IMG/VR virus record: IMGVR_UViG_3300030102_003835
Location: 1 to 44,846 of that record
Strand: one strand, 5' to 3'
DNA: 44,846 nt
Origin: a virus
The translations under genes and the position numbers were made by a program. Below are positions 1,126-8,907 of the stretch, in pieces. Numbering within the stretch: the first letter of the stretch is position 1; each line of letters opens with the position of its first letter. The notes beneath the pieces were generated by a model. The model was not told the origin of the DNA. It worked only from the letters and a program-made list of their open reading frames with translations, and ran no database searches.

Positions 1126-1338
1126 TTATCTAAGACATGTACCGTAACCTTTACGCCTACTCGCCTTGTGTATAGCAACAGACATTGCCTGTGATACTAT
1201 TTGTATTGTGTTACCTGTTTTATGATTAGTAATAGGTGCCGATGCGACACGCTCTACATTACTACATTTAACACATGTTTTGTACCCGTATTTTTGTCTT
1301 ACAGGGTGGACGGGTGCACCACATTTACAGTAATTCAT
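1126..1338 (-). CDS. Small zinc-ribbon-like protein, 70 aa
   Basis: Two CxC/CxxC-type pairs near the N-terminus (C4, C6 in YCKCGAP and C22, C25 in KTCVKCS) could bind one zinc ion, like the short DksA/TraR-style zinc-finger proteins common in marine phages. The C-terminal half is basic (KASRRKGYGTCLR) and may contact nucleic acid. It is the first gene after promoter P1 (leader about 44 nt) and lies directly upstream of the structured RNA candidate. The zinc role follows from residue spacing; the biological function is unknown. Confidence 0.7.
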   Translation of the reverse strand: MNYCKCGAPVHPVRQKYGYKTCVKCSNVERVASAPITNHKTGNTIQIVSQAMSVAIHKASRRKGYGTCLR

Positions 1339-1374: not shown

Positions 1375-1405
1375 TATTATCCAATAGTAATCGTATTTAA
1401 TTTGT
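1375..1405 (-). promoter_or_regulatory. Promoter-like element P1
   Basis: Reading leftward: ACAAATTAAA, TACGA, eight bases, GGATAATA. It aligns without gaps with five other copies. The GG lies 44 bases upstream of the zinc-ribbon gene start at 1338. A five-codon mini-ORF (MTKAY) begins 11 bases after the first G. The element overlaps the stop codon of the 33-aa ORF upstream. Confidence 0.75.
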
Positions 1406-1498
1406 AATACCGTTAGTTACTAACATAAATACTATTGAGCCTAGTAGCGCTGCTGCACCACCTATCATAGCTAAATCTGTGTGTGAAAATTTTCTCAT
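1397..1498 (-). CDS. Small single-span membrane peptide, 33 aa
   Basis: ATG at 1498, TAA at 1399-1397. The product starts MRKFSHTDLAMIGGAAALLG and continues as one hydrophobic helix (about residues 9-27) ending TNGITN. It is the last ORF of the leftward operon from P2, 10 bases after the exported 124-aa protein, and its stop lies inside promoter P1. The basic N-terminus and Gly/Ala-rich helix fit a small inner-membrane peptide. No homologue recognised; the position in an envelope-directed operon is the main support. Confidence 0.45.
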   Translation of the reverse strand: MRKFSHTDLAMIGGAAALLGSIVFMLVTNGITN

Positions 1499-1508
1499 AA
1501 TTAATATT

Positions 1509-1883
1509 TTATAAAGGTTTAGTGATTAATACTTCAAAAACTTTACCTTTTGGTTTAAATGTAAATACTGTTTGATTAGTGTTAACTACTGCACACTTTT
1601 GAGGTTTATCATCTTCTTGTGTACATAGTTCTCTAGTGTCACCGAGTTTATCTAAAAATGAAATAACAACTTTATCTGCATAAGTATATCTAACCCAGTG
1701 ACGTTTTTTGTTAAATCTACCTAAGTAAAAATATTCTAAGTCATTGTAACCAGCTATATCGTTATAAAGTACCATTTCGCTTCTACCAAATAGGTTTTTA
1801 GTAGTAATATCTATGTACTCTGTTTGTGCTTTGGCTGCCACACCACCTAGTAGTAATGCAACCGATAGTGTTATCTTTTTCAT
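1509..1883 (-). CDS. Exported protein with signal peptide, 124 aa
   Basis: The N-terminus has two lysines, a hydrophobic core (VALLLGGVAA) and an AKA-Q cleavage site near residue 19-20, a typical Sec/SPI signal, so the mature protein of about 105 aa should be periplasmic or surface-exposed. The mature part is Tyr/Phe/Lys-rich and looks like a small beta-strand domain with two cysteines (CTQ, KCA) that could form a disulfide. The start overlaps the previous gene's stop (TAATG at 1883). Family and function are unrecognised. Confidence 0.7.
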   Translation of the reverse strand: MKKITLSVALLLGGVAAKAQTEYIDITTKNLFGRSEMVLYNDIAGYNDLEYFYLGRFNKKRHWVRYTYADKVVISFLDKLGDTRELCTQEDDKPQKCAVVNTNQTVFTFKPKGKVFEVLITKPL

Positions 1884-2362
1884 TAGTATACTTCTTTTAG
1901 CTGTAACTCAAAGATTTGACCGTCACCGTTCTCTACAAAGAACTGAGCTTTGTACATATTTTCGTGCAATAAGTATACAGCTAAGTCGGTGTGACCTGAG
2001 AGTTGTACGTTAATATTTCCATCGATAAGACCTTGTGCTCTGTCGCTAATTTGGTCTTTTAGGTTTTGAAAACCTTTTACTTTTCTGCCATCGAGCATAG
2101 CATAGAACTCATACTCATCATAGCGAACGTCGTCAATACCTGGCAGGTTTGCTACGTTTATACACATAGCAACGCCGAAGTCAACTACAAAACTAGTATC
2201 GTTACCAGTACAAGTTGACACTGCATAAGTACTTACACTATTGTCGCTCATAATTTTTACATGAGTATCTCTGTCAAACTGAACGTCATAGTCAGTTTTT
2301 TCGCAAGATGTTAGCGCGAGAGTAGCTGCTACTGCCGCTGCTATAAATTTGTTACTTTTCAT
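1883..2362 (-). CDS. Putative lipoprotein, 159 aa
   Basis: The signal sequence ends in a clear lipobox, L17-T18-S19-C20, after an Ala-rich hydrophobic core; lipidation at C20 is predicted. The mature protein is acidic, with two cysteines (STCTGN and AMCINV) that could be disulfide-linked, and it looks globular. It overlaps the tiny ORF upstream and is coupled by TAATG to the exported protein downstream. Phage lipoproteins expressed early often act in superinfection exclusion; that role is inference only. Confidence 0.7.
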   Translation of the reverse strand: MKSNKFIAAAVAATLALTSCEKTDYDVQFDRDTHVKIMSDNSVSTYAVSTCTGNDTSFVVDFGVAMCINVANLPGIDDVRYDEYEFYAMLDGRKVKGFQNLKDQISDRAQGLIDGNINVQLSGHTDLAVYLLHENMYKAQFFVENGDGQIFELQLKEVY

Positions 2363-2432
2363 AAATTTGTCTTTTTAGTGCTACTAAATAATAGTAGATT
2401 AATAAATATACTGCTAAATCTATAGGTGTCAT
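2352..2432 (-). CDS. Tiny membrane peptide, 26 aa
   Basis: ATG at 2432 overlaps the TAA of the preceding gene by one base, and its TAA ends inside the first codons of the lipoprotein gene, so it bridges two genes with 1- and 11-base overlaps. The product (MTPIDLAVYLLIYYYLVALK, then six residues) is one hydrophobic span followed by a charged tail. The tight tiling argues for translation; the short length leaves doubt. Confidence 0.4.
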   Translation of the reverse strand: MTPIDLAVYLLIYYYLVALKRQIYEK

Positions 2433-2755
2433 TAGTCTATTTCATCACAGTTTTCGCAATTTACAAATGGCTCAGTGATTAAACCTGCATTAATATCTTC
2501 TAGTCTTGACAACAAGTCTATTAAGTTTTGCAAGTATAGTTCACCAACGCACTGTTGTACTCTACCATCTTGAATATCAGAGTGCATCCACTCTATTATA
2601 TCTTCAATAGTAGCTCTTGATTCTACGTATGCCCATTGAGCTTTAAACGTATTAGACGTCGCTATTCCTTCTAAGTCGTGATACTTTTCAGACTGTTGCG
2701 CGTAACACATACCACCTAGTAGTAATGCCGCGACTGTAATTTTAATTTTCTTCAT
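2432..2755 (-). CDS. Exported protein with signal peptide, 107 aa
   Basis: The signal peptide has a Lys-rich start, a hydrophobic core VAALLLGG and a probable cleavage after CYA (residue 20). The mature portion of about 87 aa is acidic and helical, with a C-terminal CENCDE motif and another cysteine (QQCVGE). It starts three bases after the stop of the 68-aa gene and is followed by the 26-aa membrane peptide with a 1-base overlap. No family recognised. Likely periplasmic or extracellular. Confidence 0.7.
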   Translation of the reverse strand: MKKIKITVAALLLGGMCYAQQSEKYHDLEGIATSNTFKAQWAYVESRATIEDIIEWMHSDIQDGRVQQCVGELYLQNLIDLLSRLEDINAGLITEPFVNCENCDEID

Positions 2756-2758
2756 ATT

Positions 2759-2965
2759 TTAATAGTATTTATTAGATTCATCTTCTTCATATTTATCTAT
2801 CATTGCCTGCTCGGCCTCTAACTCACTTAACCACTCACCTGTGTATTTGTTTTTAAAATATTCACCACAAACTGATACTACTGCTTCGTGGTCATGAGTT
2901 ACTTTTACCGTATTATCGTCACTTACCTTGTAAGTTTTACCGATTTGTTTAATTGTTACTGTCAT
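2759..2965 (-). CDS. Hypothetical protein, 68 aa
   Basis: The ATG at 2965 (MTVTIKQIGKTYKV) follows AGTAAATAAT, the usual leader, and begins one base after the upstream stop; the longer frame would overlap that gene. An N-terminal beta-rich portion is followed by an acidic helical tail (ELEAEQAMIDKYEEDE). No motif recognised. Second gene of the P2 operon. Confidence 0.6.
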   Translation of the reverse strand: MTVTIKQIGKTYKVSDDNTVKVTHDHEAVVSVCGEYFKNKYTGEWLSELEAEQAMIDKYEEDESNKYY

Positions 2966-2966
2966 A

Positions 2967-3158
2967 TTATTTACTATATTTATCGTATAACTCGTTCGCT
3001 TCGGTGTAATAACCACCGTCTTTTAACTCGAACATTAGTTTAGTTATTAATTCAAATGACTTTCTACCTTGTTTATACCAGTAGTTGTCGTCACTCATCA
3101 TATAATACCAGTCGTGACTGACTAGTAGTGCCTCTAGTTCTTTTAATTTAATTTTCAT
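2967..3158 (-). CDS. Hypothetical protein, 63 aa, first gene after P2
   Basis: An in-frame ATG at 3179 exists but lies inside promoter element P2 (it overlaps GGATAAT), so the ATG at 3158 (MKIKLKELEALL) is preferred; it would leave a leader of 19 nt. The protein is helical and Tyr-rich (DWYYMMSDDNYWYKQ). Its C-terminal part, KDGGYYTEANELYDKYSK, looks like a short helical repeat. Function unknown. It heads a closely packed seven-ORF operon. Confidence 0.6.
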   Translation of the reverse strand: MKIKLKELEALLVSHDWYYMMSDDNYWYKQGRKSFELITKLMFELKDGGYYTEANELYDKYSK

Positions 3159-3169
3159 ATCTTTATTAT

Positions 3170-3200
3170 TATTATCCATTAGTAATCGTATTTATATTGT
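3170..3200 (-). promoter_or_regulatory. Promoter-like element P2
   Basis: ACAATATAAA, TACGA, eight bases, GGATAATA in the same gapless register as the other copies. This is the only copy in which the base triplet at +12 is ATA, not ATG, so it has no leader mini-ORF. It is predicted to drive the envelope-directed operon 3158 to 1397 and lies directly downstream of the minihelix at 3206-3244. Confidence 0.75.
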
Positions 3201-3205
3201 ATAGT

Positions 3206-3244
3206 AGTGTGGGTGGAATCGAACCACCATTAACCGTTCACACT
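3206..3244 (-). ncRNA. tRNA-like acceptor/T-arm minihelix
   Basis: On the minus strand 3244-3239 (AGTGTG) pairs with 3211-3206 (CACACT). Between them are a 10-nt connector and a perfect T-arm, 3228-3212: GGTGG, loop TTCGATT, CCACC. It contains the canonical B-box GGTTCGATTCC and a T-loop of exactly seven bases. The T-stem 3' strand runs straight into the acceptor 3' strand, as in a real tRNA. D and anticodon arms are absent; the seventh acceptor position is an A-A mismatch and the next three bases are CTA, not CCA. It begins within the TAA of the 75-aa gene, so it sits at the 3' end of the P3 transcript. Possible roles: transcript-end structure, RNase P/Z target, or a relic of a host tRNA 3' end. 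Confidence 0.5.
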
Positions 3245-3471
3245 TAGTCTACTTGACACTCTCGTGCCCACGTAGGAATATTATTGGAGTTAGTATAGTT
3301 ACCATACTTTTGGAAACACTCCATTGTCTCTAATTTTTCTTGGTTTAGAGCGTAAACACCATCGTGGTCATACTTGATGACATCACCTTTTTTGTTAGTA
3401 AACTTGATTACAAGTTCTTTACCAATCATACCTTTTGAGACTACAAATCTCTTTTTTTCTACTAAGTTCAT
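3244..3471 (-). CDS. Hypothetical protein, 75 aa (paralogue of 4611-4841)
   Basis: Starts MNLVEKKRFVVSKGMIG and ends WARECQVD. It shares about two thirds of its residues with the 76-aa protein at 4611-4841, including the blocks FTNKKG, YDHD, NQEK and CFQKYGNYTNSNN. The pattern suggests a small beta-rich domain followed by a conserved Asn/Tyr-rich segment; no named family was recognised. It is the third gene after P3, and its stop codon forms the edge of the tRNA-like minihelix. Confidence 0.65.
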   Translation of the reverse strand: MNLVEKKRFVVSKGMIGKELVIKFTNKKGDVIKYDHDGVYALNQEKLETMECFQKYGNYTNSNNIPTWARECQVD

Positions 3472-3489
3472 AATTTCTAATTTAATTTA

Positions 3490-3579
3490 TTAATATTTCT
3501 TTTTATTTATAATTCTGTGTGAGTTTAACTTTTGTTGTTTAACTTGTCTTTTTACTTTTATACTTCTAAATGTTGACAT
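3490..3579 (-). CDS. Small very basic peptide, 29 aa
   Basis: ATG at 3579, one base after the upstream gene's stop, TAA at 3492-3490. The product MSTFRSIKVKRQVKQQKLNS plus HRIINKKKY has about ten Lys/Arg and no acidic residue, so it could bind RNA or DNA. It fills the otherwise empty gap between two genes of the P3 operon and has the usual AATAT-ATG leader. No homologue recognised. Confidence 0.45.
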   Translation of the reverse strand: MSTFRSIKVKRQVKQQKLNSHRIINKKKY

Positions 3580-3580
3580 A

Positions 3581-3781
3581 TTACTTATTATTTATTCTGT
3601 TATTTAATTCTTTTATTACCTGTACAAACATCTCTTCTTTATCATTAAAGAATTTATCATTTGACTCTTCATATTTTTCGATACCATACTCAAACATATA
3701 GTCTACTAGTACTTCATCTATTTTATCTATTATAGTATCTACTGTTTCATCTACTACCTTATTAATTATTTTCTCTGACAT
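3581..3781 (-). CDS. Hypothetical helical protein, 66 aa
   Basis: The frame extends upstream to a TTG inside promoter P3, so the ATG at 3781 (MSEKIINKVVDETVDTIIDK) is chosen, giving a 34-nt leader. The protein is acidic and probably all-helical with heptad-like Ile/Val spacing over residues 5-30, which suggests a small oligomeric coiled coil. No motif or family recognised. First gene after P3. Confidence 0.6.
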   Translation of the reverse strand: MSEKIINKVVDETVDTIIDKIDEVLVDYMFEYGIEKYEESNDKFFNDKEEMFVQVIKELNNRINNK

Positions 3782-3807
3782 ATTATTTATTTTATTAAGT
3801 TCATTTA

Positions 3808-3838
3808 TATTATCCAATACCTGTCGTATTTAGTTTGT
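3808..3838 (-). promoter_or_regulatory. Promoter-like element P3
   Basis: ACAAACTAAA, TACGA, eight bases, GGATAATA. An ATG exactly 11 bases after the first G opens a five-codon mini-ORF (MNLIK) that ends five bases before the main ATG at 3781. The upstream edge touches the stop codon of the 3838-4062 gene. Confidence 0.75.
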
Positions 3839-4062
3839 TATCTTCTTAGTTTATAGTCTAAATCTTTATTTAAAGTATGAATATCTTTGTTGTGAGATTT
3901 TAAAGAAGTTAGTTTAATATAACAGTAACCTTTTAAATTAAATTGTTCTGATAAAGGTATTTCATTATAGTACTTCGGTAATTGGTGAAGTTGAAATGGA
4001 ATATAAGTTTGGTTATTTAATTTAATTATATTAGTTGATGAGTCTGATTTAAAGTTTGACAT
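3838..4062 (-). CDS. Hypothetical protein, 74 aa
   Basis: ATG at 4062 after P4 (leader about 40 nt). The product starts MSNFKSDSSTNIIKLNN and is Leu/Tyr/Asn-rich with a basic C-terminus (DLDYKLRR). It is predicted to be the only gene between P4 and P3. No domain or homologue recognised. Confidence 0.6.
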   Translation of the reverse strand: MSNFKSDSSTNIIKLNNQTYIPFQLHQLPKYYNEIPLSEQFNLKGYCYIKLTSLKSHNKDIHTLNKDLDYKLRR

Positions 4063-4094
4063 AGTATATTATTTTATTAGTTTAAATTCATATA

Positions 4095-4125
4095 TATTAT
4101 CCAACAAGTGTCGTATTAGTCTTGT
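4095..4125 (-). promoter_or_regulatory. Promoter-like element P4
   Basis: ACAAGACTAA, TACGA, eight bases, GGATAATA. Its TAATACGAC is identical to bases -17 to -9 of the T7 RNA polymerase consensus promoter, and GG follows seven bases later (eight in T7). A four-codon mini-ORF (MNLN) begins at +12. It overlaps the last codons of the 4116-4355 gene. Confidence 0.75.
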
Positions 4126-4355
4126 ATTTTAAGTAACTCAAGTTGGTAATACTTGTACATGTCTTTATCATAAATATTTTTGTAGTAATTCATTTCATCA
4201 AGTAATTCTTCTTCAGAATATTTATGAGTAACTTTTGATTGTGACTTTGGTATTAGACATAGTAACTCAAATTCTTGTTGAGTAATGTGACCTTCAAGTA
4301 AACCAATTGTGTACTTAGTAACATTGATATTATATTTAGTATTTTGTACAATCAT
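4116..4355 (-). CDS. Hypothetical protein, 79 aa
   Basis: ATG at 4355 (MIVQNTKYNINVTKYTIG), leader about 43 nt after P5. Residues 15-35 (GLLEGHITQQEFELLCLI) suggest a short helix-turn-helix-like segment, and the C-terminus is Tyr/Glu/Lys-rich and helical. A regulatory role is conceivable but unsupported. It carries promoter P4 within its final codons. Confidence 0.6.
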   Translation of the reverse strand: MIVQNTKYNINVTKYTIGLLEGHITQQEFELLCLIPKSQSKVTHKYSEEELLDEMNYYKNIYDKDMYKYYQLELLKIQD

Positions 4356-4390
4356 AGTATTTAATTTTTAATAGTTATTAATTTCATTTA

Positions 4391-4421
4391 TATTATCCAA
4401 CAAGTATAGTATTTAATCTGT
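4391..4421 (-). promoter_or_regulatory. Promoter-like element P5
   Basis: ACAGATTAAA, TACTA (the only core with T in place of G), eight bases, GGATAATA. The leader holds an eight-codon mini-ORF (MKLITIKN) starting at +12 and ending five bases before the main ATG at 4355. Confidence 0.7.
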
Positions 4422-4470
4422 AAAAGTAGTATAATTGTTTATGTGATAATTTTAGTGTTGAGGTAATCCA

Positions 4471-4554
4471 CTACCTCTCTCTATTTACAATTTGTATTTC
4501 AATATATTGTAAAGTAATTCCAAGTATTATTAGTATTATTAAATCATGTATCAT
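4471..4554 (-). CDS. Possible tiny membrane peptide, 27 aa
   Basis: ATG at 4554, TAG at 4473-4471, in the 255-bp gap between two better-supported genes. The product begins MIHDLIILIILGITLQYIEI, a single hydrophobic span with a charged tail. It lies downstream of the P6-driven gene with no promoter of its own. An inverted repeat, GAGGTA/TACCTC, at 4460-4477 overlaps its stop and could act as a weak transcript end. The low-complexity A/T sequence makes this call tentative. Confidence 0.3.
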   Translation of the reverse strand: MIHDLIILIILGITLQYIEIQIVNRER

Positions 4555-4603
4555 AATAGTGTGACATTAGGTAGTTAAGTAAAGTATAGTAGGTGGCAAG
4601 TGT

Positions 4604-4620
4604 CACAGTTTTACACTGTG
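4604..4620 (-). terminator. Hairpin at the end of the 76-aa gene
   Basis: Perfect 6-bp inverted repeat CACAGT (4604-4609) and ACTGTG (4615-4620) with a 5-nt loop, overlapping the TAA of the 4611-4841 gene. No U-run follows on the minus strand, so it is at most a weak terminator or an mRNA 3'-end stabiliser. The paralogous gene at 3244-3471 also ends in a structure at the same place. Confidence 0.4.
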
Positions 4621-4841
4621 TACTCGCGACCAAATGTTGGAACATTATTACTATTTGTGTAATTACCATACTTTTGAAAACAGTTCATTGTTTCAAACTT
4701 TTCTTGATTTGCACTATACACTGCATCGTGGTCGTAAGTATATGTTTCACCTTTTTTATTTGTAAAAGTAATTAATACATTTTTACCGATTAGTGACTTT
4801 GATATTACAAATCTTTTTTTAGTTAATGTTTCTTGTGACAT
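4611..4841 (-). CDS. Hypothetical protein, 76 aa (paralogue of 3244-3471)
   Basis: Starts MSQETLTKKRFVISKSLIG and shares KKRFV, FTNKKG, YDHD, NQEK and CFQKYGNYTNSNN with the 75-aa paralogue about 1.4 kb away; by hand about 47 of 70 positions match. It is the gene nearest the divergent control region, directly after P6, so it is probably among the first phage proteins made. No named family recognised. Confidence 0.65.
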   Translation of the reverse strand: MSQETLTKKRFVISKSLIGKNVLITFTNKKGETYTYDHDAVYSANQEKFETMNCFQKYGNYTNSNNVPTFGREYTV

Positions 4842-4879
4842 AATAATTTAGTTTAAGTTATATATTTTATTTACATTAT

Positions 4880-4910
4880 TATTATCCAGATACTGTCGTA
4901 ACTAATTTGT
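4880..4910 (-). promoter_or_regulatory. Promoter-like element P6
   Basis: ACAAATTAGT, TACGA, eight bases, GGATAATA, the outermost copy, facing left from the divergent region. The ATG at +12 is followed directly by TAA, a start-stop mini-ORF. The main start at 4841 lies 46 bases downstream of the first G. Confidence 0.7.
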
Positions 4911-5160: not shown

Positions 5161-5868
5161 ATGGCATTTAAAATGAAAAACCCTATGATGGGTGCAGCCG
5201 CTAAAATGGCAGGAGATCCTAGAGCCGCTATGAAGATGAAGTCAGCACTAAAGAGAACTGATATACAGCTGTTCAACGTAGACGCAGTTACGGGAGAAGA
5301 AACAAGAAGAGAAATATCTAAAGAAGAGTTTGAAGATATTAGAAACATGTCTGACGCTGAGTATAGAGAAAAATACGGTGGCACAAAGCCTTCAATTGAT
5401 ACTAAAGGCACAAATGTAACTGAAATGAACATAGGTCGTACCGGAGGCGGTGAAGACGCGCCAGGATATAATGAAGACGCTTACGAGAGTAAAATAGTTC
5501 TTACAGGTGAAGATGTAACTGACTATAAAGAGACTCAGAAAGACAGAGAAAAAACAACACCTCCAGGAGCAAAAACAGATAGAGAGATAAAAGCAGATGC
5601 TAATATAATTGAAGCGGAAGGTTTTGACAGTGGAAAACCAAACGATGTCATTAAATCTAATTATCTTAGCCAAGCAGATCAAAAGAGAAAGCTTGTTGAT
5701 TTATTTTCGCAGCATGCATTTGGCTATGAGGGAGAATATCAGATTAAATTTAATAGCAAAGGACAACCGACATACAACGGAAGACCTATCACTTATAAAA
5801 TGTTAGATGCCTTAGAAGATAAGAAGCTTTCAGCAGAATATAAGTCTAGACAAGGTGGAGAAAAATAA
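5161..5868 (+). CDS. MAFKMK-leader protein, 235 aa
   Basis: The N-terminus MAFKMKNPMMGAAAKMAGD continues to RAAMKMK at residue 21-27 and matches the next gene's N-terminus closely (MAFKMKNP..., AAGDNR.AMKMK). After this basic Met/Lys-rich leader comes an acidic, low-complexity middle (residues 40-150, rich in Glu, Asp, Thr and Gly) and a C-terminal domain ending YKSRQGGEK. No enzyme motif seen. It opens the rightward block. I infer a virion or late structural role from the company it keeps. Confidence 0.75.
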   Translation: MAFKMKNPMMGAAAKMAGDPRAAMKMKSALKRTDIQLFNVDAVTGEETRREISKEEFEDIRNMSDAEYREKYGGTKPSIDTKGTNVTEMNIGRTGGGEDAPGYNEDAYESKIVLTGEDVTDYKETQKDREKTTPPGAKTDREIKADANIIEAEGFDSGKPNDVIKSNYLSQADQKRKLVDLFSQHAFGYEGEYQIKFNSKGQPTYNGRPITYKMLDALEDKKLSAEYKSRQGGEK

Positions 5869-5893: not shown

Positions 5894-6973
5894 ATGGCAT
5901 TTAAAATGAAAAATCCATCTATGGCTAAGCTTACTAAAGCAGCGGGTGATAACCGTGTAGCTATGAAGATGAAGATGGAATCAGCAGCTAAAATGAAAAA
6001 AGAAGCTGCAATGAAAATGAAAAAAGAGTCTATGGCTAAGCTAAAAGAAAAAGCTGCCATGAAGATGAAAAAGTCTCCTATGGAGAAAGAACTTGTTGGT
6101 AATCAGAAAAATTTAAACGAAGGTTTAAAGAAAGCAATTGAAGCTGCGCCAAGCAAGATGAAGAAAGGTGAGCCAATGAAAATGAAAAAAGGTGAGCCAA
6201 TGAAAATGAAAAAAGAATCTTCTATGAAGATGGGTCATAAATCAGCTACTAAGTTAAAAAAACCTTCACCTGCTAAGCAAAAGATGAACATGGTAAAAGG
6301 TCCTGATGGCAAGATGGTCCCTGATTTTGCTGTAGACGGTAAAGGTGCTAATGATATGAAGTCTGGTGCTAAAATGAAAGATGATAGTCCAGTAAAAAAA
6401 ACTTACAGCCAAGCTTGGAACGATATGACCGAAGCGCAAAAAAGTAAGTTTGAAAGCAAAGAAGATTTTATAAGTAAAGCTAAGCGTTATAATCAAAAAA
6501 AGTACGGAACAACTGAGCCTACTAAAGCGGCGGACAAGTTTACTGGCGGAGATAGAAAAGAGTTAGAAAAGTTAGCTAAACCTAAAAAAATAGCTCGTAG
6601 AGAGGGCGGAGAAAAAGGTAATAAATTAGCTAAAGTAACAACTCCTAGAAAACCTAGTACAGCTGATCAAATAACAGCTATTAAAAGAGAAGGTGGTAGA
6701 GGCGCTAGAAAAATAGCTGCAGCAGAAAGAAAAATGAGAAAAGCAGCTGGCGATACTTCAAAGAGAGGCGATAGAAAAAGAAGAAAGGCAGCTAAAAAGC
6801 TAGGAAAAGCTGGAGTAGAAAGCCCGATGACGATGGTAAAAGCAGTTCGTAAAGAGCAAAAACCTAAAAATCCTAAAGGGGTTCAACAGCCAGCACTTAA
6901 AAACAATAAAGTAAAGCCTGTAAAGCAGACTGGTAAAAAACTAAGAAAGCCTAGCGTTACAGCAAAATTTTAA
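5894..6973 (+). CDS. MAFKMK-leader, Met/Lys-rich basic protein, 359 aa
   Basis: Begins MAFKMKNPSMAKLTKAAGD. Residues 15-125 are dominated by MKMKK-type repeats, including two tandem GEPMKMKK units encoded by a perfect 24-bp DNA repeat. SP-K motifs recur (SPMEK, SPAK, SPVKK, SPMT), recalling the SPKK minor-groove-binding motifs of histone H1 and similar proteins. The C-terminal half is strongly basic (RKRRKAAKKLGKAG). The composition fits a nucleic-acid-binding, DNA-condensing or packaged head protein. That is inference; no family was recognised. Confidence 0.75.
   Translation: MAFKMKNPSMAKLTKAAGDNRVAMKMKMESAAKMKKEAAMKMKKESMAKLKEKAAMKMKKSPMEKELVGNQKNLNEGLKKAIEAAPSKMKKGEPMKMKKGEPMKMKKESSMKMGHKSATKLKKPSPAKQKMNMVKGPDGKMVPDFAVDGKGANDMKSGAKMKDDSPVKKTYSQAWNDMTEAQKSKFESKEDFISKAKRYNQKKYGTTEPTKAADKFTGGDRKELEKLAKPKKIARREGGEKGNKLAKVTTPRKPSTADQITAIKREGGRGARKIAAAERKMRKAAGDTSKRGDRKRRKAAKKLGKAGVESPMTMVKAVRKEQKPKNPKGVQQPALKNNKVKPVKQTGKKLRKPSVTAKF
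6164..6211 (+). repeat. Tandem 24-bp direct repeat inside the Met/Lys-rich gene
   Basis: Two adjacent units of about 24 bp, each containing GGTGAGCCAATGAAAATGAA (at 6167 and 6191), encode consecutive GEPMKMKK octapeptides. Shorter diverged MKMKK units surround them, suggesting that the protein grew by slippage or unequal duplication. Confidence 0.8.
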
Positions 6974-7335: not shown

Positions 7336-8907
7336 ATGGAGTACAACAATCCTAGTCTCCTCATCAAAGAATTAAACTTTGGTGAGGACGCTAAAACCAA
7401 AATTACAGCTGGTGTAACCAAGTTAGCCAGCGCAGTTAAATCAACATTAGGCGCCTCTGGTAAGTGCGTAATCTACGAAGATGCAAGAGGTATGCCAGTT
7501 ATTACAAAAGACGGTGTAACCGTTGCAGAAAGTGTAGTTCTTTACGATCCAGTTGAGAATATCGGCGCTACACTTATTAAAGAAGCTGCTAAAAACACAG
7601 TTAAAGAAGCCGGCGATGGTACTACAACTGCAACTGTGTTAGCCGAGTCCTTGCTAAATACAGTAAATTCACCTAAATTTGAGGACTCCGCCTCTCGTGT
7701 TCTGCGAGATGGCGTTAATTCTGGCCTAAAAAAGGTCAATGACTACCTAAATTCAGTAAAAATAGACGTAACTGACGAAACACTACAGCATGTTGCTGCT
7801 ATATCGTGTAATAATGACGCTACTCTTGGCGATATTATAGCCGAAGCGTACAAAACTGTAGGTAAAGACGGTGTAGTACTCATGGAAGAGTCAGAAACTG
7901 AAGAAACTTACGTAGAAGTAGTAGACGGTGTACAAATAGACTGTGGTCTTACGTCACCAAACTTTGTAACTAACAAAGATAAACACAAGTGTGAGCTTGA
8001 TAACCCGTTAGTATTTATATGCATGAGTGAAATACCTAACGTACGTAAGATACAAAGCATATTAGAACATGCTATAAAGAATAATAGAGCATTATTAATT
8101 GTAGCTCCAGTGGCTCAACCTGTTAAAGCTACACTTATGATGAATAAAGTTAAAGGTAATATTAAAGTAAACATCGTAGACTTACCAGGCTTTGGCCCTA
8201 CTAAAAAAGATACATGTGAAGATCTTGCTATACTAACAGGCGCCACAGTCATGAACGAAGAACTAGGTGATGATTTAGATCTTATGAAGCCTGATTGTTT
8301 AGGTGAAGCTGAGTTTGCCACTACAGACGATAAGACTACTGTAATAACTACTATAGAAGAATTAAACGAAGATATATCTGAGCGTATAGATCAGGTAGCT
8401 AAAATGGTTGCAGATGAAAAAAATGGTTTTATTAAAAAGAAACTGGAGCAAAGACTGTCTATGTTATCGGGTAGTGTTGGAATTATCCGTGTTGGGGCAA
8501 ACTCGAAGGTGGAGCTTAAAGAAAAGAAAGACAGGATCGAGGATGCTATTTACGCTACGAAGGCTGCGCTAAAAGAAGGTATAGTACCTGGAGGTGGTAT
8601 AGCACTCTTTAATGCTTCAGAAAAAATCGAACCCACTAACGTGGGCGAAGAAGCATTGCTTGAAGCTATTAAATCACCGTTTAAAACTATTATGGCTAAC
8701 GCTGGATTTAACGTTATAGCTTCTCCAAGCGAAGAAGGTATAGGTGTTAATGTTGTAACTGGCGAAGAAGTTAGCATGGTAGAAGAAGGTATTATAGATC
8801 CTGTACTTGTAACTAAGTCAGCACTTAAAAATGCAGTGAGTGTTGTTATGACTATCGTTTCTGCAGACTGTGTAATATCAAACGCTAGAGTAGATGAAGG
8901 CAGTTAA
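7336..8907 (+). CDS. groEL: Phage chaperonin GroEL (Cpn60), 523 aa
   Basis: ATP-dependent folding chamber protein, recognisable along its length. The nucleotide-binding GDGTTTAT motif has its Asp at residue 94, ITKDGVTVAES follows the N-terminal STLGASGK (bacterial GroEL has TLGPKG), and the EKKDRIEDA block with D403 corresponds to the ATPase Asp398 of E. coli GroEL, followed by EGIVPGGGIAL. Slightly shorter than cellular GroEL (about 548 aa) and without the Gly-Gly-Met tail. It overlaps groES by 14 bases, the reverse of the usual cellular groES-groEL order. Probably folds capsid or tail proteins too specialised for the host chaperonin. Confidence 0.95.
   Translation: MEYNNPSLLIKELNFGEDAKTKITAGVTKLASAVKSTLGASGKCVIYEDARGMPVITKDGVTVAESVVLYDPVENIGATLIKEAAKNTVKEAGDGTTTATVLAESLLNTVNSPKFEDSASRVLRDGVNSGLKKVNDYLNSVKIDVTDETLQHVAAISCNNDATLGDIIAEAYKTVGKDGVVLMEESETEETYVEVVDGVQIDCGLTSPNFVTNKDKHKCELDNPLVFICMSEIPNVRKIQSILEHAIKNNRALLIVAPVAQPVKATLMMNKVKGNIKVNIVDLPGFGPTKKDTCEDLAILTGATVMNEELGDDLDLMKPDCLGEAEFATTDDKTTVITTIEELNEDISERIDQVAKMVADEKNGFIKKKLEQRLSMLSGSVGIIRVGANSKVELKEKKDRIEDAIYATKAALKEGIVPGGGIALFNASEKIEPTNVGEEALLEAIKSPFKTIMANAGFNVIASPSEEGIGVNVVTGEEVSMVEEGIIDPVLVTKSALKNAVSVVMTIVSADCVISNARVDEGS

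Follow-up and report, generated by a model that had tools for sequence, protein, structure and literature searches.

Six copies of a short sequence element lie on the minus strand in the left arm of IMG/VR virus record IMGVR_UViG_3300030102_003835, a 44.8-kb viral fragment (positions 1 to 44,846) that was analysed over its whole length and is here called the window. We consider it very probable that these elements are promoters for a phage-encoded factor of the sigma-70 family, about 250 amino acids (aa) long, that would work with the core RNA polymerase of the host. As judged from sequence, dozens of uncultivated marine phages have both the signal and the gene for this sigma factor. The core of the original prediction, namely that the promoters are specific to the phage and depend on a transcription protein whose gene lies outside the window, appears to be right.

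The six elements were found where they had been predicted, all on the minus strand, and neither the plus strand nor a reversed-pattern control gave any. The pattern TACKA-N7-TGGATAATA, with at most one mismatch, occurs six times in the window against 0.08 expected, and none of 100 shuffles reached six. A matrix built without the window recovered exactly the same six, scoring 23 to 43 bits, and shuffles of the window gave none at that threshold. Common to all six copies, as had been claimed, are TACGA (TACTA in one), an 8-base gap with T as its last base, and GGATAATA. The farther upstream ACARNNTAAA, also described as shared, is exact in only four copies, the ones at 4095-4125 (ACAAGACTAA) and 4880-4910 (ACAAATTAGT) being different. 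It had been said that the copies match neither the Bacteroidetes promoter nor a well-spaced -35/-10 pair; the first half holds, the sites having GATAATA and not TAnnTTTG at -12 to -5, but ACAAAY(T)-17 bp-GATAAT in the copies is a well-spaced pair. Each element was also thought to head a transcription unit, and an open reading frame (ORF) does follow each copy, 6 to 33 nucleotides (nt) from the predicted start, with predicted leader lengths of 33, 30, 27, 21, 6, and 31 nt. The promoter flanks are near-identical between the window and G013 (L328), its closest syntenic relative, which has left-arm genes in common with it at 53 to 96% identity. The copies and the small genes behind them are as follows, with identities referring to G013.

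1375-1405, minus strand: promoter copy with ACAAAT at 1405-1400, TACGA at 1395-1391, and GATAATA at 1381-1375; predicted +1 at 1369, predicted to serve the ORF at 1126-1338
3170-3200, minus strand: promoter copy; predicted +1 at 3164, predicted to serve the ORF at 2967-3158 with a 6-nt leader (an alternative longer frame from 3179 would begin within the -10 element)
3808-3838, minus strand: promoter copy; predicted +1 at 3802, predicted to serve the ORF at 3581-3781
4095-4125, minus strand: promoter copy containing TAATACGAC; predicted +1 at 4089, predicted to serve the ORF at 3838-4062
4391-4421, minus strand: promoter copy with TACTA instead of TACGA; predicted +1 at 4385, predicted to serve the ORF at 4116-4355
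4880-4910, minus strand: promoter copy heading the left arm; predicted +1 at 4874, predicted to serve the ORF at 4611-4841
1126-1338, minus strand: small gene behind the promoter at 1375-1405, 93% identical
2967-3158, minus strand: small gene behind the promoter at 3170-3200, 94% identical
3581-3781, minus strand: small gene behind the promoter at 3808-3838, 82% identical
3838-4062, minus strand: small gene behind the promoter at 4095-4125, 96% identical
4116-4355, minus strand: small gene behind the promoter at 4391-4421
4611-4841, minus strand: small gene behind the promoter at 4880-4910, 95% identical

Viral contigs scanned with a 14-base core of the element gave more than 100 stretches, many of them on contigs of 50 to 70 kb with several copies each. 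The matrix scan of relatives, a kind of check that the original prediction had proposed, found 6 to 22 above-threshold elements per genome, on one strand only and in the replication arm; in G010, the 22 elements are counted with a repeated stretch included. As a consensus, the element reads TTACAAACTAAATACGA, then 7 free bases, T, and GGATAATATAAAT(G/A). The spacing hardly varies: AAATACGA and GATAATA are separated by 9 bp in 167 of 169 cases, and ACAAACT and GATAATA by 17 bp in 91 of 93. Read from sequence, the sites fit the sigma-promoter pattern of -35-like and -10 elements 16 to 18 bp apart with a purine start about 7 nt after the -10 element. An ORF begins within 60 nt downstream of 86% of the sites, compared with 30% of nearby positions. 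GATAATA is the most invariant part and, together with the spacing and the +1 purine, stays constant while the upstream part drifts by lineage. In L256 and L320 the variant GGTTGACACGA has lost ACAAA and kept ACGA, L264 has ACAAACAAAA without ACGA, L289 has CCCCTAACTAAATAC(A/T)A, and L299 has ACAA-AATAATACGT. That either upstream half can be lost alone suggests two separate readers for ACAAA and ACGA.

The matrix that selected the sites spans -38 to -7 only, and the +1 position was never used in choosing them. A purine stands 7 nt after GATAAT at all 96 sites of ten genomes and at 317 of the 318 sites in a set selected through the sigma protein, against a background of 65% (p ~1e-57, a value inflated by shared ancestry, as discussed below). 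This purine lies 12 nt beyond the GG seen in the elements and is preceded by T in about 70% of cases. An ATG stands exactly at the predicted +1 at 32 of the 96 sites, and 31 of these open at least 35 codons, versus 30% of nearby ATGs. We infer that the purine at this position, 7 nt past GATAAT, is the first transcribed base. Because the ATG of an open gene coincides with the predicted +1 at 31 of 96 sites, about a third of the units are predicted to make leaderless mRNA, compared with ∼5.5% of the mRNAs in Flavobacterium psychrophilum (PMC9723704). In Flavobacterium johnsoniae, 87% of leaders are longer than 10 nt (PMC6847099).

The candidate sigma factor is a 250-aa protein encoded by the near-complete relatives. 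It matches PHROG 351, "RNA polymerase sigma factor," with E values of 5e-18 and 7.5e-23. A profile search of the PDB gave 66 matches, and 60 of the 60 among the matches listed are sigma factors (best, 3e-11); with Foldseek, the matches listed are sigma chains of initiation complexes (best, 3e-6). The predicted fold has a mean predicted local distance difference test (pLDDT) score of 75 and a disordered linker. An alignment of 42 members contains an IRGAIRRAID..R..RIPEHK stretch and a C-terminal stretch resembling a helix-turn-helix (HTH), which we take to be sigma regions 2.3-3.0 and 4.2, respectively. Homology to sigma regions 2 and 4 was thus found, in the relatives.

A total of 48 records were searched for both the sigma gene and the sites. 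Every record that reaches 58 kb and has two or more sites carries the gene (17 of 17), and the records with sites but without the gene are all fragments shorter than 56 kb, the window included. Fisher's test gave a p value of 5e-5 for this linkage, which is only indicative since some records with neither feature entered by chance match. One genome, G022, encodes the sigma factor and lacks the standard motif, yet it carries GATAATA sites with a diverged upstream part, and MW202828.1 and elemoA, which are terminase kin, have neither sigma gene nor motif. In the reverse test, 80 loci were picked solely for encoding the sigma protein. Of these, 64 have sites on the strand of the sigma gene, and the totals are 339 sites on that strand versus 9 on the other. 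Most of the site-less loci end shortly upstream of the sigma gene; L289 and L320 do not, and these carry diverged versions of the element. In G013, the sigma gene and its partner gene, described below, lie further along the same strand as the shared left arm, and on the basis of the spacing there the window virus would carry both at ∼2.5 to 3.9 kb beyond position 1 of the window. Two oddities were seen in single genomes: G017 has two sigma matches (L216:3695-4444 and L219:4909-5658), which may mean a second sigma gene or a repeat in the assembly, and in the G016 contig the sigma frame at 55767-56520 is split into two pieces.

A 206-aa protein is encoded directly before or near the sigma gene in 77 of the 80 loci, and the remaining three have less than 850 nt upstream of that gene. 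It has a conserved C-terminal stretch, KITI..IA..L..S.RTIHRNM, with an HTH-like look, and its model reaches a pLDDT of 88.5; neither the PDB, by sequence and by fold, nor PHROGs gave a significant match. Its position and its HTH-like end lead us to guess that it binds promoter DNA.

In the mechanism that we propose, the elements would be promoters of the left-arm, or replication-side, genes, and the phage sigma factor would bind the host core RNA polymerase and direct it to them. We infer from the sequence pattern both the binding of the sites by this sigma factor and the assignment of promoter blocks to proteins. The -10 element GATAATA (-12 to -6) would be the target of sigma region 2, and ACAAAY, located 17 to 18 bp farther upstream at -36 to -31, is most likely that of region 4, with the start falling on the purine. 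The second block, AAATACGA, spans -29 to -22, outside the positions that a sigma factor usually contacts, and its reader may be the 206-aa protein encoded just before the sigma factor. A bolder form of this proposal, which we regard as possible though rather doubtful, is a two-protein switch in which the sigma factor and the 206-aa protein, the latter of a new family, jointly read one rigid tripartite promoter (-35-like ACAAA, ACGA at -25 to -22, and GATAATA) and often place the start on the initiation codon; infection would then tilt translation towards leaderless mRNAs, which are rare in this host group.

Several points weigh against assigning the elements to this sigma factor. The window itself, being a fragment, has no sigma gene, and a tblastn search of the isolated phages in the collection found none that encodes it. 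A sigma -35 element does not require so long an upstream block, and a second factor or an unusual contact must be assumed. When sigma region 4 and the C-terminal segment of the partner were inspected by eye, no residue tracked the upstream-block variants. Finally, because the sites are related by descent, their counts and the p value for the purine overstate the independent evidence.

The alternative that survives best, although we think it quite improbable, is that the host supplies an alternative sigma factor for these promoters and the phage exploits it, with the phage sigma factor aimed at other targets. The original prediction had itself allowed for an unknown host sigma factor; a sigma factor it appears to be, but one whose gene lies in the phage relatives and not in the host. 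Flavobacteria do have several alternative sigma factors (PMC9723704), and the exact site is present in a few Flavobacteriaceae contigs from metagenome-assembled genomes (MAGs). However, the host motifs of F. psychrophilum (TAnnTTTG variants, a sigma-54-like motif, TAnnTTGY, and a CGT box) are unlike the element (PMC9723704), and the co-occurrence of sigma gene and motif would go unexplained. Exact matches amount to 6 stretches in 84,980 genomes, with no more than one or two sites on any chromosome, numbers so low that they give no sign of a host regulon.

The copies outside phage genomes are single and exact, and they lie in Flavobacteriaceae/Flavobacteriales MAG contigs without the phage sigma gene (L333:149-179, L334:4275-4305, L332:324-354, and L330:4720-4750). 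In two genomes they stand before related short ORFs, with a near-copy 18 kb away in G050. One copy precedes a gene that we presume to be TerB-like from its appearance, and another, at the end of a contig, immediately follows a tRNA-Asp-like sequence. These copies may mark host genes that are triggered by infection, or they may belong to integrated elements or stem from assembly joins. A 64-kb contig filed under a Prochlorococcus single-cell genome, L331 (QCKH01000009.1), has the phage promoter and encodes one protein with 53% identity to a protein of a relative, and is perhaps a co-sorted phage of another host.

Still less probable, in our view, is a phage activator, for example the 206-aa protein, that reads the DNA and recruits the primary sigma factor of the host, the phage sigma factor being accessory or acting elsewhere. 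The placement of the AAATACGA block outside the usual sigma contacts would suit such an activator, as would the conservation of the 206-aa protein near the sigma gene in 77 of 80 loci and its HTH-like end. But GATAATA, the most invariant segment, is unlike the flavobacterial sigma-A element TAnnTTTG (PMC6847099), and a different sigma factor is therefore to be expected. A scan for host-type promoters of the form TTG-N16-23-TAHHTTTG found no general excess over shuffles, and a scan of the left arm for Escherichia coli-type promoters gave an uninformative 39 against 30 expected.

The least probable reading is the one that the original prediction favored, T7-type promoters used from the GG by a phage single-subunit RNA polymerase, whether nonvirion or an N4-like virion enzyme. 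With the second G as +1, TACGA falls at -14 to -10, about the register of TACGA and GG in the T7 promoter (TAATACGACTCACTATAGG), and the copy at 4095-4125 does contain TAATACGAC with GG seven bases later, as had been pointed out. However, the sites have no CACTATA segment, the window has 0 matches to the T7 consensus at up to 3 mismatches, and the suggested search for such a polymerase, run on near-complete relatives with the PF00940 profile (32 records first, then with controls), found none, whereas the controls were detected (T7, 1e-109; a 421-aa N4 frame, 1e-14; and, marginally, the giant N4 frame, 7e-3). The two giant proteins of the window had no RNA polymerase match in the PDB, two giant proteins that were aligned with each other proved not to be true counterparts, and a regular-expression search of large proteins for polymerase catalytic residues gave scattered chance matches only. 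A start at the GG would leave the invariant purine unexplained, and the leaderless ATGs and the sigma linkage would be unaccounted for as well.

A phage sigma factor is an already known kind of system. In the podoviruses 7-11 and phiEco32, the sigma-family proteins gp47 and gp36, respectively, redirect host RNA polymerase to phage promoters, as proposed here; the 7-11 promoters are bipartite, and in phiEco32, sigma-dependent transcription is also activated by the helper protein gp79 (PMC8948821). Their promoters, GTAAtg-16-aCTA and tAATGTAtA, differ from ACAAAYTAAATACGA-N8-GGATAATA, and they serve middle and late genes, whereas the present sites lie in the replication arm. Their hosts are enterobacteria, while the phages studied here presumably infect Flavobacteriia. 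Flavobacterial sigma-A promoters (TTTG / TAnnTTTG) presumably use the same core polymerase and also start a few bases past the -10/-7 element (PMC6847099, PMC9723704); the -10 element GATAATA is closer to the E. coli type than to theirs. The Flavobacterium phage elemo group and MW202828.1 resemble the window in having a related terminase (46% and 63% identity, respectively) and GroEL/GroES genes, but both are without the sigma gene and the motif. Motif matches listed for isolated phages are at chance level, all with E values above 0.05, and a literature search found no paper on this sigma factor or motif in flavobacterial phages. What is new is this sigma family, the tripartite fixed-gap promoter, the leaderless starts, and the lineage variants that lose upstream parts separately.

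The terminase, portal, GroEL, and one structural protein of the window match phage families. The kin of the terminase among isolated phages are phages of Flavobacterium, Cellulophaga, Tenacibaculum, and Maribacter and the spring-water phage MW202828.1, and the window virus is most likely a podovirus related to phages of Flavobacteriia. The replication arm of the near-complete relatives contains small genes together with primase-helicase, ribonucleotide reductase, thymidylate synthase, ERF, and ligase genes, and the structural genes are in the other arm on the opposite strand. A GroEL-type chaperonin is encoded at 7336-8907 of the window (phrog_5725, E value of 1.6e-133), and the relatives encode one too. 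Positions 3244-3471 and 4611-4841 are two copies of one left-arm gene and match the same single G013 gene (65% and 95%, respectively). The adjoining right-arm proteins at 5161-5868 and 5894-6973 have the start MAFKMKNP in common, and the latter probably has internal repeats, since it aligns several times over to one shorter G013 protein. On the minus strand, noncoding positions 4555-4630 fold better than shuffles (z of -2.9), and the ∼220 bases at 900-1125, which hold no convincing gene, had a folding z of -0.4 against shuffles and no Rfam match. A tRNA-like stretch at 3206-3273 folds no better than shuffles (z of -0.7), and ARAGORN found no tRNA.

The promoter described here would serve as a readable code of transcription in a large, uncultivated group of marine phages; the system is absent from their isolated relatives. 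It would also make correct annotation of the genes and start codons of this group possible. The drift of a promoter together with its sigma factor would become testable over many natural lineages. If the leaderless starts are true, these phages would produce leaderless mRNAs in large number, and would do so in hosts of a group in which ribosomes are not dependent on Shine-Dalgarno pairing.

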